Assembly: GCA_001567485.1 (NCBI GenBank)
Contig: JZRA01000009.1
Span: 1-64,000, forward strand
Direction: 5' to 3'
DNA length: 64,000 nucleotides
Source of the DNA: Chloroflexi bacterium OLB13
GTDB taxonomy: Bacteria > Chloroflexota > Anaerolineae > Aggregatilineales > Phototrophicaceae
The notes beneath the pieces are model-generated. The model ran no database searches, was not told where the DNA came from, and was given only the letters and a program-made list of their open reading frames with translations. Of this stretch, positions 54,357 through 64,000 are shown piece after piece (positions within the stretch are counted from its first letter, which is position 1; each line of letters begins with the position of its first letter). A program made the position numbers and the translations under genes.

Positions 54357-55610
54357 ATGCGATACATGCTCGGGCAAATCTTCTCATCGGTGCGATTTCG
54401 TATCGGCTTCTCTATCTTTGCGTTTATCCTGCTGACGGTACTCATCTACCCGCTTATCATCACCGAGCCGCCGCTGAAGACGATCAGCCGTGGAACGTTC
54501 CTTTCGCCCGGAATTTACGTCAATGTATACGACAGCATCGGATTTTCTCCCCAGTACACGCTGCTGCTTGACGGGGCGGCCGAGCGGCGCATCGCAGCGA
54601 AGTTGAACGCTGACGACCGCGCATCCATGAAGGAATGGCTGGTCAAGGCGGGGCTGCCTGAAGAGTCCATCGACACACAGGACACCGCGGCGCTGCTGGA
54701 GGTGTGGCACGCCAACTTCGACCCCACCATCCGGCTTCCGGGGATGACCAACGCCGACCGCAATTACTACATCCGCCTCAACACGGCGCTTGATGGGCTG
54801 TTGGCGACCGAAGGCGCGACGATCGCTGTGCCTGATGCGACCACCGGGGCGCTGAAAGAACAAGCGGTGGTCGATCAAACCAGCTACGTCAACATCTACG
54901 AGGTGCCGAACTCACGTGTGTTTCCACTGGGGACAGACAACTTCGGGCGTGATGTCTTGACTGAGTTGGTGGCAGCGACCGGGGTCTCGTTGATTATCGG
55001 CTTCGTGGCTGGAACAGTAGCGACGGTCATCGGGCTGCTGCTGGGCCTGATTTCGGGGTTCTTGGGTGGTTTCGTGGACGACGCGATCATCTTCGTCACG
55101 AATCTGTTCACGGTGATCCCCAGCTTCATCATCTTGATCCTGATTACGTTTAGCATCGGTCAGGACAAGCGCGGGGCGATCACTATCGCGGTAGTGATCG
55201 GTTTGACGTCATGGGTCTGGACGACGCGGGCCGTCCGCGCGCAGGTGATTTCACTGCGCAATCGCGACCACGTCAACCTCTCGCGACTGTCCGGGCATTC
55301 GACCGCCTACATCTTAATGGCCGACATCTTCCCGTATATTGCTTCCTACGTCGTGATGGCGTTCATCCTTCAGGTCTCGTCGGGCATTCTGGCCGAGGCC
55401 GGCTTGTCCATTCTGGGGCTGGGGCCGCGGACGACAGAAGTGCCGACGCTCGGGCTGATGATGAACTGGGGCATGATCTATCAGGCGCATATTCTAGGCA
55501 AGTGGTGGGCCTACTTCCCCGTGATTCTCGTGATCGCGCTGATTACCTTCTCGCTGAACTTGATGCAAACCGGTCTCGACCGGGTCTTCAACCCAACCCT
55601 GAGAGAATGA
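54357..55610 (+). CDS. ABC permease (DppC-like) with large extracellular loop
   Basis: This 417-residue membrane subunit is over 100 residues longer than usual DppC proteins. The first helix (about 16-36) is followed by about 165 extracytoplasmic residues (36-205) before [14 protein letters not shown], where typical members have 50-70. The insertion is polar and helical ([37 protein letters not shown]). The rest is normal, including [22 protein letters not shown] and [12 protein letters not shown]. The loop faces the binding protein and may form a docking platform. Start at ATG 54357, 10 bases after the upstream stop. Confidence 0.9.
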
Positions 55611-57732: not shown

Positions 57733-57818
57733 GTCCGTACGTTCCGGGTCGCCATCACATGCCTGTTTGGCGTCGCTTGGCTCCGAGGACGAAGTGGCAA
57801 TATAAGGAGGGATTAGAA

Positions 57819-59153
57819 ATGGTCAAGGTCTTTCGTTTGTTGCTGGTGGTCGGCTTGATGCTCTCTGGCATTGCAACAGCCGCCCAAGAAGAAGTCACCA
57901 TTACTGCACGTTGTCAAGCTAACATCGCCGGTGGCGAAGGTTGGCGGTGTGACAACTTCGCCGCTGTCGAGGAGCAGGTTGAGCAGGAGCTTGGCATCAA
58001 CCTCACGCTTAACATCATTCAGGACAGCAAAGGATGGGCCGATTACAAAACGGAGTTTGTGCTGGCCGCCGAGGCCGGTGAAGCGCCGGACATCATCTTG
58101 TCGGGCCACGAAGATATCGGCGCGTGGGCTGCGGCGGGCTTAATCATCCCGCTGGACGACCTGATCGCGCAGCACGAGGAATTCGCCGATGTCGTGCCCA
58201 ATCTGTGGGTGTCGCAGACGTACGACGGCAAGATTTGGGGCATTCCGCAGGATGCTGAGGCGCGCCCGATCTTCTACAGCAAGCTGCTGCTGTCCGACTT
58301 GGGCTGGAGCGACGAGGAGATCGCGTCCCTGCCTGAACGTGTCCGGACGGGCGAGTTCACGTTCGAGGATATGCTCGCCACCGCGGAACAGGCCGTTGCA
58401 GAAGGCGTCGTGGAACCCGGTAAGGGCTACTATCACCGTTGGGGCAACGGGTTTGATTGGCTGCCATACTACCTCGGCAACGGCGGCGAGATCATGACTG
58501 AAGACGGTCAACTGGTCTTCGATCGGGATGCAGCGCTGGCCGCTTACGAACTGATCGGGAGCTTCGTCAAGCGCGGTGTCACGCCAGAGACGATGATCGG
58601 CACCGAGTCGTCGGCGATCTATGCCGAGTTCGCGCCGGCCGAAAACGTGCTGTTCTATCAGGGCGGCACGTGGCAGTGGGCCGATTGGGCGCGCAATTAC
58701 GTCGCCGACCTCGGCGGTAACGACTTCCTGCTTGAAAACGTCGGCCTGATGCTGTTCCCAGCGATGAATGACGGCGTGCCCCTCTCGCTGACACATCCGC
58801 TGTCTTACATGATCAGCAGCGGCAGCGAACATCCCGACGTGGCGATGGCGCTGCTGGCGGCGGTCACTACGCCGGAAGCCAACAACCGCCACGCCATCGA
58901 CAGCTTCCACCTCGGTATCCTGACCACGCAGGTCGAGTCCGAGGCGTACGCGGCCAACCCGGTGCTGAGCGGGGCGCACTACATGCTGGACTACACCCGC
59001 TTCGCGCCGAATACGCCGTTCTACAGCGCGTGGTCGAATGCGTACTGGGCAGGCATTCAGGCGGCGCATACCGGCACACCGGCCGAAGAAGCGGTGGAAC
59101 TGGCGGTGACTCAGCTTCAGAATGAACTGGGCGATCAGATCGTTATCCGCTAG
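57819..59153 (+). CDS. ABC transporter solute-binding protein, family 1 (sugar type)
   Basis: Family-1 binding proteins deliver sugars or glycerophospho-compounds to MalFG-type permeases. The 444-residue protein has a signal peptide ending IATAAQ without a lipobox Cys, then DYKTEFVLAAEAGEAPDIILSGHEDIGAWAAAGLIIPLDDLIAQ, typical of this family, and VLFYQGGTWQWADW. The C-terminus ends ELGDQIVIR. AAGGAGG lies 8 bases before ATG 57819. Gene order (binding protein, two permeases, MalK-type ATPase, glycerophosphodiesterase-domain protein) recalls ugp, so glycerophosphodiesters are one possible ligand; an oligosaccharide is another. Confidence 0.92.
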   Translation: MVKVFRLLLVVGLMLSGIATAAQEEVTITARCQANIAGGEGWRCDNFAAVEEQVEQELGINLTLNIIQDSKGWADYKTEFVLAAEAGEAPDIILSGHEDIGAWAAAGLIIPLDDLIAQHEEFADVVPNLWVSQTYDGKIWGIPQDAEARPIFYSKLLLSDLGWSDEEIASLPERVRTGEFTFEDMLATAEQAVAEGVVEPGKGYYHRWGNGFDWLPYYLGNGGEIMTEDGQLVFDRDAALAAYELIGSFVKRGVTPETMIGTESSAIYAEFAPAENVLFYQGGTWQWADWARNYVADLGGNDFLLENVGLMLFPAMNDGVPLSLTHPLSYMISSGSEHPDVAMALLAAVTTPEANNRHAIDSFHLGILTTQVESEAYAANPVLSGAHYMLDYTRFAPNTPFYSAWSNAYWAGIQAAHTGTPAEEAVELAVTQLQNELGDQIVIR

Positions 59154-59285
59154 TCCATTCGTATCAGCCAACACCGATGGGCGCGTATACCGTGCCCATC
59201 GGTGTCAACCCACGCGCGCGCACTCCGGCTTCACACAGCCGTGGCCGCGCATCATGGACTGCTGGTTCGAACAGGTCGACTTCGT

Positions 59286-60245
59286 ATGAATATGAACACC
59301 TCCGCCCGCGCCCGAACTGCGCCGACGCGGCCGAACCTTACGGCATACGCATTTCTCGCGCCGGTTGCGATCCTCGTGGTGCTGTTCTTCATCATCCCCG
59401 CTTTGCTGGTGATCTATATCAGCATGACCGATCTGGCGACGGCCAACTTTACGTCCGATGTCGGTCAGATGACCTTCATTGGCCTCAAGAATTACGAGAC
59501 GCTGTTCTCGGATCCGTACGCGCGCAAGATCTTCTTCAACACGGTGTTCTATGTGTTGGTGACGTTGTCTTTGTTCAACGTGGGTGGCGCGCTGGTGGTT
59601 GCGCTGTTGACCGCGCATATCAACCGCCGCGCCGGGTTCTTCTTTCGCGCGTTGTGGCTGCTTCCGCGCCTGATGACCTCCACGGTTTATATCCTGATGT
59701 GGGAGCGCATGGTCGCGGATCCTCCGTACGGTATCCTCAATCAGTTGTTCGGTGTGGCGGGCTATGGCACGGTAGCGTTCAACACCAACCACATTTGGAC
59801 ATTCGTGATCCTCGTGAACGGGATCATCGGCATCTCGTTTGGCATGATTATCTTTACGTCGGCCATCGAGTCGATCTCCAAGGACATCATGAACGCCTCG
59901 CTGGTGGATGGATCAACCGCCATGCAGCGCATTCGATATGTCATCTTGCCGCTGATGCGTTGGCCTCTGCTGTTCGTCTTGAGCTATCAGACGTTGTCGC
60001 TGTTGACATCTTATGAAGAGATCTTGTTGTTTACCAACGGTGGCCCGGGCGTCTATCAGACCGAGGTATGGGCGCTGACCGCGTTCCATCGCGCGCTGTC
60101 GAACTACTTCGGCAATGCGCAGTGGGGCTATGGCTCGGCGTTCGCTGTGGTGCTGGTCATCGTCGGTATCGTCCTTGCGATCCTCTATCTGCGTATCTTC
60201 CGGTTCCGCGAGCTGGTCTCAGAGCCGAAGATCGAGAACTTGTAA
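59286..60245 (+). CDS. Sugar-type ABC permease (MalF/UgpA-like)
   Basis: This 319-residue membrane subunit has six predicted helices, the first at about 20-42 (AYAFLAPVAILVVLFFIIPALLVIYISMTDL). The outer loop has FIGLKNYETLFSD and the cytosolic EAA-like coupling loop is MNASLVDGSTAMQRIRYVILPLM. ATG 59286 precedes a short polar N-terminus; an earlier reading adds unrelated residues. It pairs with the PDZ-containing permease downstream. Confidence 0.92.
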   Translation: MNMNTSARARTAPTRPNLTAYAFLAPVAILVVLFFIIPALLVIYISMTDLATANFTSDVGQMTFIGLKNYETLFSDPYARKIFFNTVFYVLVTLSLFNVGGALVVALLTAHINRRAGFFFRALWLLPRLMTSTVYILMWERMVADPPYGILNQLFGVAGYGTVAFNTNHIWTFVILVNGIIGISFGMIIFTSAIESISKDIMNASLVDGSTAMQRIRYVILPLMRWPLLFVLSYQTLSLLTSYEEILLFTNGGPGVYQTEVWALTAFHRALSNYFGNAQWGYGSAFAVVLVIVGIVLAILYLRIFRFRELVSEPKIENL

Positions 60246-60258
60246 CGGGAGGCACGAG

Positions 60259-61848
60259 ATGAGTCACGCACAACGTGCGCCCCAATCCCCCCAAACGCCG
60301 CAGATGGCTGAACCGCTGAGTACCGTAGCAGATACCGTGATTCGAGCCGTGCGCGGCGCGCTGATTACGGCGGCAGTGTTGATCGTGCTGGCGCTGTTCT
60401 TCGGACGGCTGTTCGGCCCACTGTGGAAGTCGCTGAACGTCGACGAGTCCTTTAGTCAGACACTCGCCGGGCTTGCGTCACTGCTGCTGCCGTTGGCGGT
60501 TTACCTCGCGCTTGGGATGGGCGCACGGGCGCATCGTAAGCGGAGCACGACGCAGGCAGCGGTCATCACGATTGCGCTGGCGACGGTCGCGGTGGCAATC
60601 TTCTATATCCTCAATACCAGTCAAGGCGCAGGGGCCGCGGCGGAACAGTCCTCGCTGCAATTTGCGGCCACACAGACCGCCGATGGGATCGTGGTCGACG
60701 CGATCGAGCCGGGCGGCGCGGCTGAGCTGGCGGGACTGCTGCCCGGCGATGTCATCACGGCGCTGCGGCGTGACCCGATCACGCTGGCGCAGCTCGAAAG
60801 CGCGGTCGCGGAATCCGAACCCGATACGCCGTTTCGGCTGAGGCTGCTGCGCGCAGGCGAGGAGATGCAGCTCACGGTGCGCACGGTGGCGGTCGCGGTC
60901 GAATCCGCCGGCCTCAAGCTAGGCCCCATCGCGGCAGCGTGGATCGGCGGCGCTGCGGTGGCGCTGATCGGCCTGTTCGGCCCGCCGGGGTGGGCGCCGT
61001 ATATTCTGCTCACCGTGTCGCTGTCGCCGCTGATCCTCGGCTTCGCTTGGCTGGCCGTTGCCACCGTGTCGTATCGCACGCAGGGGCTGCTGCCGATAGA
61101 CGCGCAGGGCAACGTGGGCGGGTTGACGCTGGAGAACTGGAGCTTTCTGGGTATCGGCGGCGAAGCGCCAGCGACCCCGATTTGGAGCTACGCGGCGAAT
61201 TCGCTGTTCATCGCCATGCTGATGACGGGCGTCACGCTCGTGCTGAGTTCGATGGCGGGTTATGCGCTGTCGCGTATGGAGTTCTCCGGGCGGCGTTTCT
61301 TCTTGTCGCTGACCTTGATCCTGCACAGCTTCCCGGCGGTGACGCTGCTTATCCCGGTGTATCTGGTGCTGCTCAACCTCGGAAAAATCCCGCTCATCGG
61401 CCCGCATATCGGGTTTAATTCGATCGGCGGGATCGCGCTCGTGATGATCGCGTTCGGGCTGCCGTTCGGCGTGTGGCTGATGAAGGGGTTCTTCGACAAC
61501 ATCTCGTGGGATATGGAACGTTCCGCGTTGATCGACGGTGCAAGCCGCTGGCGCACGTTCTGGGAGATCATCCTGCCGCAGATTCGGCCCGGCCTGCTGG
61601 CGTTGGGCATCTTCTCGTTCATCGGCGGGTGGAATGCGTACCTGATCCCGGCGATTTTCAGCATCGGAACGAAGGCCGCGAACCTGCCCGTATATATTCG
61701 CACACTGACGGGTGATACCAATGCGGTCAACTGGAATCAGGTTGTGGCCGTCGGCGTATTTCAGATGATCCCGATCCTTGTGATCTTCGTATTTGCGCAG
61801 GAATACCTGCTCAACATCTATTCGGGGGGCAGTAAGGGCAGTTCCTAG
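60259..61848 (+). CDS. Sugar-type ABC permease (MalG/UgpE-like) with extracytoplasmic PDZ domain
   Basis: This 529-residue protein is nearly twice the usual MalG length. The C-terminal half (about 245-529) is a normal MalG-type permease with GLTLENWSFLG in its outer loop, TMs, and the EAA loop MERSALIDGASRWRTFWEIILPQ. The N-terminal half adds helices at about 34-52, 69-87 and 100-118, a PDZ domain at 132-215 (DGIVVDAIEPGGAAELAG then LLPGDVITALRRDP), and a further helix at 222-241. Positive residues (AHRKR at 91-95, GRR at 344-346) place the PDZ domain outside the membrane, beside the binding-protein docking face. GGGAGG lies 6 bases before ATG 60259. No frame break or second start separates the halves. 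Confidence 0.93.
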   Translation: MSHAQRAPQSPQTPQMAEPLSTVADTVIRAVRGALITAAVLIVLALFFGRLFGPLWKSLNVDESFSQTLAGLASLLLPLAVYLALGMGARAHRKRSTTQAAVITIALATVAVAIFYILNTSQGAGAAAEQSSLQFAATQTADGIVVDAIEPGGAAELAGLLPGDVITALRRDPITLAQLESAVAESEPDTPFRLRLLRAGEEMQLTVRTVAVAVESAGLKLGPIAAAWIGGAAVALIGLFGPPGWAPYILLTVSLSPLILGFAWLAVATVSYRTQGLLPIDAQGNVGGLTLENWSFLGIGGEAPATPIWSYAANSLFIAMLMTGVTLVLSSMAGYALSRMEFSGRRFFLSLTLILHSFPAVTLLIPVYLVLLNLGKIPLIGPHIGFNSIGGIALVMIAFGLPFGVWLMKGFFDNISWDMERSALIDGASRWRTFWEIILPQIRPGLLALGIFSFIGGWNAYLIPAIFSIGTKAANLPVYIRTLTGDTNAVNWNQVVAVGVFQMIPILVIFVFAQEYLLNIYSGGSKGSS

Positions 61849-61879
61849 CCTGCTGCTGCGAAAGAAGGCGAGACATCTC

Positions 61880-62959
61880 ATGCAGGTCGATATTCAGAAC
61901 CTGACCAAGAAGTTCGGCGACGTCACAGCAGTGGCGGACGTGTCGCTGGACATCCGCGACGGCGAATTCGTGGCATTCCTCGGGCCATCCGGGTGTGGCA
62001 AAACGACCACGCTGCTGATGCTGGCGGGCATCTACAAGCCCACCGATGGCACGATCACCTTCGGCGAGCGGATCGTTAACCTTGTGCCGCCGCGCGAACG
62101 CAATATCGGCATGGTGTTTCAGAGCTATGCGCTGTACCCGCACATGACGGTGTTCGGTAATATCGCGTACCCACTTAAGCTCAAGAACGTGTCGCGCGCC
62201 GACCAGCAGGAGCGTGTCAAGCGCGTTGCCGACGTGATGGGGATTGGTGAGCTGCTCGACCGCAAGCCGGCACAGCTTTCCGGCGGTCAGCAGCAGCGCG
62301 TCGCGCTGGGCCGCGCACTGGTCAAAGAGCCGGACATCCTGCTGTTTGACGAACCGTTGTCCAACCTCGATGCGCGCCTGCGCTTGACGATGCGCGCGGA
62401 GATCAAGGCGCTGCAAAAACGACTTGGCATCACGTCGGTGTACGTCACGCACGATCAGGTTGAGGCGCTGACGATGGCCGACCGTATCGCGGTGATGAAC
62501 AAGGGGCGGCTTGAGGCGTATGCCACGCCGGAGGATCTGTACGATCATCCGCGCACGACGTTCATCGCCAACTTCGTCGGGAATCCGCCGATCAATATGG
62601 TCGATGTCGAACTGGCGCAGGAGAACGGGCAGGTCGTGGCGCGCTGCGCGGCATTCACGGTGCCGCTAGACAGCGAGCGTGTTCGCAAGGCGGTGGCGCA
62701 TGGGCGTAAACTAACGATGGGAATCCGCGCTGAAGACATCACGCTCGGCGACGATGCTGCGCTGACCGGCGAGGTATACGCGGTCGAGCCGTTGGGACGA
62801 GAGGATATGCTGGATGTGCGTATCGGGGCAGAGAGCTTTTTCGCGCTGGCGACGCCCCAACAGCGGATGCGCGCCGGCGACCGGATCGGCCTTCATATCG
62901 ACGCGGAACGCCTCCAATTTTTTGACCCTGCGACCGGCAAATCCGTCCTCTGGGAGTAA
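61880..62959 (+). CDS. MalK/UgpC-type ABC ATPase
   Basis: This 359-residue ATPase drives the sugar-type importer. It has Walker A GPSGCGKTT, Q-loop VFQSYALYPHMTVF, signature [16 protein letters not shown], Walker B ILLFDEPLSNLDA, switch His in VTHDQVEALTMAD and a C-terminal OB-type regulatory domain (about 240-359, MGIRAEDITLG). Such ATPases often serve several importers. It starts 31 bases after the PDZ permease stop. Confidence 0.94.
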   Translation: MQVDIQNLTKKFGDVTAVADVSLDIRDGEFVAFLGPSGCGKTTTLLMLAGIYKPTDGTITFGERIVNLVPPRERNIGMVFQSYALYPHMTVFGNIAYPLKLKNVSRADQQERVKRVADVMGIGELLDRKPAQLSGGQQQRVALGRALVKEPDILLFDEPLSNLDARLRLTMRAEIKALQKRLGITSVYVTHDQVEALTMADRIAVMNKGRLEAYATPEDLYDHPRTTFIANFVGNPPINMVDVELAQENGQVVARCAAFTVPLDSERVRKAVAHGRKLTMGIRAEDITLGDDAALTGEVYAVEPLGREDMLDVRIGAESFFALATPQQRMRAGDRIGLHIDAERLQFFDPATGKSVLWE

Positions 62960-62965
62960 CACGCA

Positions 62966-64000
62966 GTGACATCTTTGACCGATCAGGTTGCGCATCTGCG
63001 TTTCGTGTCGACCGATACGCCCGACCGAGCGTTGGCGCTCGCTCATGCGCCGGTCATCCGCTTTGACGTGCGTGAGCCGTTCCAGCCGCTGGCGGTTGGC
63101 TATACAGTGTTTCGGGCCAACGGAACGTCGCCGTCGTTCCCGCGTGACATCGTGCTAGACGGCCGCGGCGCGGTGTGCATCGAGTACGCGATCTGGTGGG
63201 ACTGGGACATTCAACATCTGTACGAGCTTGAGCATATCTGGGTGTTTCTCGACGCCGACGGACGGCTTGCCGACGCCGATGCGAGCTGGCATGGCGGCTA
63301 CAGCCGCATGATCGACGAGCACGGCGCGCTGCCCGCCGAAGATGGCCGGTTGGTCGTCTGTTCCGAACCGGGTAAGCACGCGTTCGCGCCGTCGCCGGCG
63401 TGGTTGATCGAACGCAAGCCGCACACCGTCCGGAGCTGTACGTCGCGCAGCGGGGCGGGAGGGGTGTGGGTGACTCCGCTGTTCGAGGGTGTGATCCACG
63501 ACCGCAATCCGAACACTAATCAGCTGGTTCGGACGTATCTTGAGCGCCACGCGTTCGAGCCGACACATCAGTTCGACCTTCGATTCGCGCTGGAGAAGGC
63601 GATATGCGTGCCGTGGGACACACTCAACGCGTGGATTCCCCCGCGTGTGACGGCGTGGCTCGATGAACTCGAACGCACGATTCCCCCACACGAACGGCGT
63701 GTGCTGCGCATCGCCCACCGTGGCGCGAGCGCGCATGCGCAGGAGAACTCCGCCGACGCCATTCGTATCGCCGCAGAGCTTGGATCGGATTTGGTCGAGG
63801 TCGATGTGCGCGTGACCGCCGACGGCGTGCCGGTGATCTCTCACGACGACAGCCTGAATCGAGTCTACGGCGTGCCGGGGCGTATCCCCGAGCTGACACT
63901 GGAGCAGCTTCAGGCCGCGGCGCCGGTGATGACGTTCGATCAACTGCTTGAGCAATCGCGCGAGGTGGGTATCGGCCTGTACCTCGACATCAAGGCGCTG
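62966..64000 (+). CDS. Glycerophosphodiester phosphodiesterase with novel N-terminal domain, cut by window edge
   Basis: The frame is open from GTG 62966 (GGGAG about 9 bases upstream) to the window end, 345 codons. Residues about 250-345 are the start of a GDPD barrel: IAHRGASAHAQENSADAI, LVEVDVRVTADGVPVISHDDSL, which hold the catalytic His pair and metal Glu/Asp. GDPD enzymes split glycerophosphodiesters to glycerol-3-phosphate and an alcohol. The first 240 residues are not GDPD. They carry WWDWDIQHLYELEHIWVFLDADG and ASWHGGYSRM, a conserved-looking His/Glu/Asp pattern I cannot assign. The gene follows the ATPase by 6 bases and is probably part of the importer operon. Confidence 0.85.
   Translation, partial: MTSLTDQVAHLRFVSTDTPDRALALAHAPVIRFDVREPFQPLAVGYTVFRANGTSPSFPRDIVLDGRGAVCIEYAIWWDWDIQHLYELEHIWVFLDADGRLADADASWHGGYSRMIDEHGALPAEDGRLVVCSEPGKHAFAPSPAWLIERKPHTVRSCTSRSGAGGVWVTPLFEGVIHDRNPNTNQLVRTYLERHAFEPTHQFDLRFALEKAICVPWDTLNAWIPPRVTAWLDELERTIPPHERRVLRIAHRGASAHAQENSADAIRIAAELGSDLVEVDVRVTADGVPVISHDDSLNRVYGVPGRIPELTLEQLQAAAPVMTFDQLLEQSREVGIGLYLDIKAL

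Follow-up and report, generated by a model that had tools for sequence, protein, structure and literature searches.

A single open reading frame in the window (the whole stretch of 64,000 nucleotides analysed here) encodes an ABC permease of the MalG/UgpE type with a PDZ domain built in ahead of its core, and we regard this PDZ-plus-MalG-type permease architecture as near certain to be real. The frame of this protein, hereafter PDZ-permease, starts 13 bases behind the stop of the upstream permease and has the following parts.

60247..60252, + strand: ribosome-binding site GGGAGG, 6 bases before the ATG (sequence)
60259..61848, + strand: PDZ-MalG/UgpE-type ABC permease, 529 aa, complete open reading frame from the ATG at 60259 to the stop at 61848
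60325..60432, + strand: extra helix TM1, residues 23-58 (AlphaFold module model)
60445..60522, + strand: extra helix TM2, residues 63-88 (AlphaFold module model)
60547..60621, + strand: extra helix TM3, residues 97-121 (AlphaFold module model)
60643..60894, + strand: PDZ domain, residues 129-212 (Pfam, AlphaFold model, structural Z ~14 against HtrA PDZ)
60652..60663, + strand: carboxylate-loop equivalent S-L-Q-F, residues 132-135 (alignment columns, alignment with PDZ domains of the same genome)
60919..60978, + strand: extra helix TM4, residues 221-240 (AlphaFold module model)
61000..61845, + strand: MalG-type core, residues 248-529 (BPD_transp_1, and homology to PDZ-less sisters from ~247)

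Architecture and location of the PDZ domain

The modules follow one another as three extra TM helices, the PDZ domain, one more helix and the six-helix core, and the open frame, the Pfam matches and the AlphaFold model of the module bear out the proposal of the first-pass annotation that extra helices and a complete MalG-type permease share one frame. In Pfam, both PDZ families score above their cut-offs (PDZ_2 at residues 138-208, 29.1 bits, E=1.2e-6, cut-off 27; PDZ at residues 137-186, 25.2 bits, cut-off 23.2), as does BPD_transp_1 (residues 329-517, 56.1 bits, E=5e-15, cut-off 26.4), and among NCBIfam models the PDZ part is matched best by DegP/HtrA and the C-terminal part by MalG. The EAA region (residues 408-432) is highly conserved, as expected of a MalG-type CUT1 permease. 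The four helices and the PDZ domain were modeled by AlphaFold from 38 homologues with a mean pLDDT of 90.2, and the region folds as a PDZ domain; in the full-length model the permease core is poor, with pLDDT mostly below 60. HtrA-family PDZ structures match residues 127-217 in Foldseek and VIA-align (Z ~13-14.5 over 76-91 residues, rmsd 1.1-3.4), and the profile scores together with the modeled fold place the domain in the PDZ fold family. The domain had thus been recognized correctly from the letters, but its limits had been set at residues 132-215, and these are replaced by 129-212.

Prediction supports an extracytoplasmic PDZ domain, because it comes to lie outside the cell when the helices are counted from the EAA loop on the cytoplasmic side towards the N-terminus, and the charges agree: loop 54-66 has KR 0.2/DE 2.2, loop 87-98 has KR 2.6/DE 0.8, and the PDZ domain with its linkers has KR 10.2/DE 15.1. 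The outer placement first read from the charge distribution is therefore upheld by the helix count.

The gene lies in a Ugp-like operon

PDZ-permease is surrounded by the genes of a type I importer.

57813..59153, + strand: solute-binding protein (SBP; SBP_bac_1 by Pfam), with an SPase-I-like signal peptide without lipobox
59280..60245, + strand: partner permease, MalF/UgpA type (Pfam, NCBIfam)
61874..62959, + strand: UgpC/MalK-type ATPase (Pfam, NCBIfam)
62966..64000, + strand: glycerophosphodiester phosphodiesterase (GDPD), running past the window end

All the partners expected around a MalG-type permease are present (an SBP, another permease and an ATPase of the MalK type), and a GDPD homologue stands directly behind the ATPase in ~24 of 40 fusion loci. 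The gene order of the E. coli operon is ugpBAECQ (PMC7866108), and the window has the same order of binding protein, permease, permease, ATPase and GDPD. The ATPase is nearest UgpC, with 421 bits just below the cut-off of 432, and for the partner permease the nearest NCBIfam model is UgpA. In contrast, E. coli UgpE is an ordinary MalG-type permease without the module, and PDZ-permease scores far below the cut-offs of both the UgpE model (66 bits against 297) and the MalG model (109 bits against 261). The UgpB model does not appear among the NCBIfam matches of the binding protein. A GDPD gene behind the ATPase in the ugpBAECQ order suggests glycerophosphodiesters or glycerol-3-phosphate as the substrate, which we infer rather than assign, because the permeases and the ATPase score below the equivalog-level NCBIfam cut-offs. 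The GDPD protein carries ~250 N-terminal aa without a Pfam family before its GDPD domain.

The fusions form one clade

A search of a collection of 85,000 species recovered the fusion in 40 further loci, with 48-61% identity to PDZ-permease, and fusion homologues are found in 12 other genomes among 60 relatives, one of them running into a contig end. In a tree of permease cores, the 40 fusions and the window protein form one group (SH-aLRT 92), and the PDZ label changes once across the tree compared with a mean of 27 changes after shuffling; judged from these sequences, the clade of 41 fits a single gain. Closest to it among the outsiders is L120, an Ardenticatenia permease without the PDZ domain. 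The ordinary PDZ-less permeases (L089-L128) mostly start matching at about residue 247, and the module is therefore an N-terminal addition.

The window genome is a draft of 148 contigs, a state in which two genes could be joined in one MAG by an assembly or annotation artefact. We consider this scarcely conceivable in view of the 40 further loci in one clade, the one-contig genome G029, which carries the fusion too, and the strong ribosome-binding site. The first-pass annotation had named a false join as what would undo its reading and had called for a search for PDZ plus BPD_transp_1 elsewhere in Chloroflexota; the homologues with the same fusion exclude the former, and the 40 loci of one clade answer the latter.

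Within the order, the module occurs in 49 of 154 genomes, once each and always in an open frame of 470-643 aa. In the order and phylum searches, scoring was confined to the top candidates from a permissive initial pass; among these, no stand-alone copy of the module was found in the 154 order genomes at E<=1e-20, and an even draw of 301 phylum genomes returned only the window's own module at E<=1e-25. A stand-alone module as source or partner was accordingly rejected, every match in the order sitting in a permease-sized frame. With one copy per genome, the PDZ module is dedicated to one importer system. The same-genus relatives G001 (71% complete) and G002 (89% complete) are without it. Two sets of apparent further fusions were also discarded: the 492 aa of L116 result from an extension into a different frame, and those of the 656-657-aa frames that were read are MalF-MalG fusions. 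One fusion nested in the Chloroflexota clade, L079, lies on a contig binned as Bacteroidetes, reflecting mis-binning or transfer.

Several permeases met along the way carry extra sequence of other kinds. L120 (= L043, 1415-2524) carries, inserted in the first outer loop of its core, ~80 aa that include hydrophobic stretches, and the MalG-like permease of L047 (frame from 1483, G056:C284; 967 aa) has a very large insertion in its first outer loop. In the operon next door to PDZ-permease, a DppC-like dipeptide-type permease (window 54360-55607, 416 aa) matches BPD_transp_1 at residues 225-408 only and has ~110-130 extra aa between its first helix and the core, another enlarged outer loop.

The carboxylate loop departs from the PDZ motif

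PDZ and PDZ-like domains hold the ligand's carboxylate on an X-phi-G-phi loop that precedes the binding strand and whose Gly is highly conserved (PMC2891790). The GLLPGDVI segment, which had been taken for the carboxylate-loop region, corresponds to the conserved turn that follows helix A, and the actual loop is S-L-Q/E-M/F in the family and S132-L133-Q134-F135 in PDZ-permease. Among the 38 homologues, residue 134 is Q in 24, E in 13 and G in one, so that the canonical Gly is missing in 37, while the hydrophobic positions are kept (L133 in 37 of 38, M/F135 in all 38). The only homologue with the Gly is L079 (SLGF). Other PDZ domains of the window genome keep phi-G-phi (FFGI and ILGV in a secreted tandem-PDZ protein, FIGV in HtrA), and the second PDZ domain of DegP aligns to the profile through GAEM, a similar departure from the motif. 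G163, D164, R171 and R198 are invariant in the fusion family. The domain thus lacks the Gly-containing loop of a canonical peptide-binding PDZ, which makes canonical C-terminal capture doubtful. Internal hairpins, which PDZ domains can also bind (PMC2891790), or another surface could be bound instead.

The obvious C-termini fare no better as ligands. In 38 PDZ systems, the last residue of the SBP is R in 33, Q in three and K in two, and the PDZ-less sisters have similar SBP endings; because of both, the SBP tail is not a canonical or PDZ-specific ligand and was rejected as a candidate. With the loop Gly missing in 37 of 38 homologues and R, K or Q ending all 38 SBPs, the suggestion that the domain captures the binding protein in the canonical C-terminal manner is not supported. 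The C-terminus of the MalF-type partner (EPKIEVL and similar) is hydrophobic, but it is cytoplasmic by homology and occurs in PDZ-less sisters too, and it was also set aside.

The matches of the module elsewhere in the window genome at E<=0.001 include the secreted tandem-PDZ protein and an HtrA-type protease. The former (L190, 7089-8153) has no protease domain, and its first PDZ together with its signal peptide is the genome's closest non-permease match to the module (E=7.6e-16); it is conceivable as the source of the TM3-PDZ unit.

Lipid anchors of the binding proteins

At PDZ loci, the SBPs with a readable N-terminus have no lipobox, whereas most sister-locus SBPs of Chloroflexota and Actinomycetota have one, a striking pattern across loci that would fit a PDZ domain tethering an SBP that has lost its lipid anchor and standing in for that anchor. 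Genome-wide controls undo it, however. The lipobox is missing in 53 of 54 sugar SBPs of the window genome and three other PDZ-bearing genomes (the one match looks spurious, and two start sites are unreadable) and in 10 of 10 SBPs of G040, a sister genome without the PDZ module. In G364, a Caldilineaceae genome, 10 of 10 SBPs carry one; lgt is present in 61 of 61 genomes and lspA in 58 of 61. Because of these controls, the missing lipobox is a trait of the lineages and not of the PDZ system, and as the SBPs moreover end in R, K or Q, we rejected the replacement of a lipid anchor as very unlikely. Almost all sugar SBPs of the Anaerolineae-related genomes G000 (L129-L153), those of L077, L069 and L088, and G040 have SPase-I-like signal peptides ending in ...AQ(D/E). 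In the genome of L101, the SBPs L192, L215 and L218 carry a LysM-like repeat at the N-terminus (YTVQANDWLSKLADKFYGD...) that might anchor them in the cell wall.

Possible roles of the outer PDZ domain

By analogy with MalF P2, which reportedly contacts MalE throughout the cycle (Daus 2007 and 2009, as cited in PMC3150292), we propose with somewhat less than even confidence that the PDZ domain serves as an outer docking or cap domain, its role, its partner and the substrate being inferred. The UgpE/MalG half of a Ugp-like importer would have gained the module once, as three helices, an outer PDZ and one further helix; the PDZ domain would sit on the outer face beside the pore and contact the partner permease, the soluble SBP or both, in a manner resembling the hold of P2 on MalE, and it would not grip a free C-terminus in its groove. 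To see which subunits the domain diverges with, we calculated partial distance correlations with the other subunits controlled; with only 29 loci, eight tests and uncorrected p values, PDZ divergence follows that of the SBP (r=0.23, p=0.025) and the MalF-type partner (r=0.26, p=0.012) but not that of the ATPase (r=-0.09, p=0.81). The extra helices show no co-divergence with the SBP in the same 29 loci. Weak as it is, this co-divergence with the two subunits and not with the ATPase is as expected for outer-face contacts and speaks for a docking or cap domain outside the cytoplasm. Against it, PDZ-less sister systems with similar binding proteins exist, and the domain is therefore unneeded for basic docking; the same-genus genomes G001 and G002 do without the module, and the correlations are weak.

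Alternatively, the domain might recruit some other extracytoplasmic protein, such as a protease, a phospholipase/diesterase or an envelope factor, through that protein's C-terminus or an internal beta-hairpin and couple it to import, which we think unlikely. The HtrA-type fold, the retained hydrophobic positions of X-phi-G-phi (L133, M/F135) and the ability of PDZ domains to bind internal hairpins (PMC2891790) speak for recruitment; the absence of the loop Gly in 37 of 38 homologues, though other PDZ domains of the window genome retain the motif, speaks against it, and the annotated part of the gene clusters that recur next to the fusion revealed no gene for a secreted partner. Less likely again is a degenerate structural spacer that binds no partner and steadies the permease or the extra helices. 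The non-canonical groove motif would suit such a spacer, as would the flanking helices, whose mean distance of 1.1, compared with 0.25 for the core, shows a much faster divergence. The PDZ domain itself, however, is under purifying selection (dN/dS ~0.05-0.3 in close pairs, with synonymous sites saturated), is better conserved than the flanking helices and keeps G163, D164, R171 and R198 invariant.

A bolder possibility, which we hold to be rather doubtful, is a PDZ-regulated ABC importer, in which the outer PDZ domain, by sensing or capturing an extracytoplasmic protein, would gate the delivery of substrate or channel it; with similar reserve, the captured protein might be a hairpin of the SBP, a phospholipid-degrading enzyme or an envelope protein. 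If true, this would be a previously undescribed mode of ABC import.

Comparison with known systems

Bacterial PDZ domains are known mainly from proteases. No PDZ-bearing ABC importer is described in the literature searched, as the first-pass annotation had supposed, although subscription papers lay mostly outside that literature and an earlier mention is possible. A survey of 7,852 microbial PDZ proteins, 93% of which were classified into 12 families, makes no mention of transport, permeases or ABC in its main text (PMC6411480). Importer class and domain are thus both known, and what is apparently undescribed is their combination. A PDZ domain built into a nutrient importer shows that the outside of a type I importer can be fitted out in a new way, and the module, which roughly one in three sampled genomes of one Chloroflexota order carries, is confined to one Ugp-like system. 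PDZ-permease also provides a defined case for asking how bacteria with anchor-less sugar SBPs keep them at the transporter.

MalF P2 likewise forms part of a permease, lies outside the cytoplasm and faces the binding protein, a likeness drawn by analogy from the literature with no homology shown; it belongs to the other subunit, has another fold and lies between core helices. The solved CUT1 permeases MalG and SugB align with residues ~303-527 of PDZ-permease (E down to 4e-27), and they lack the four extra helices and the PDZ domain that precede its core. With the PDZ domains of HtrA, DegP, DegQ and DegS, the PDZ domain of PDZ-permease shares the fold (Z ~14) at 18-33% identity; unlike these proteins, PDZ-permease has no protease domain, SL(Q/E)(M/F) replaces phi-G-phi, and an RRD turn is present whose R171 is invariant throughout the fusion family.
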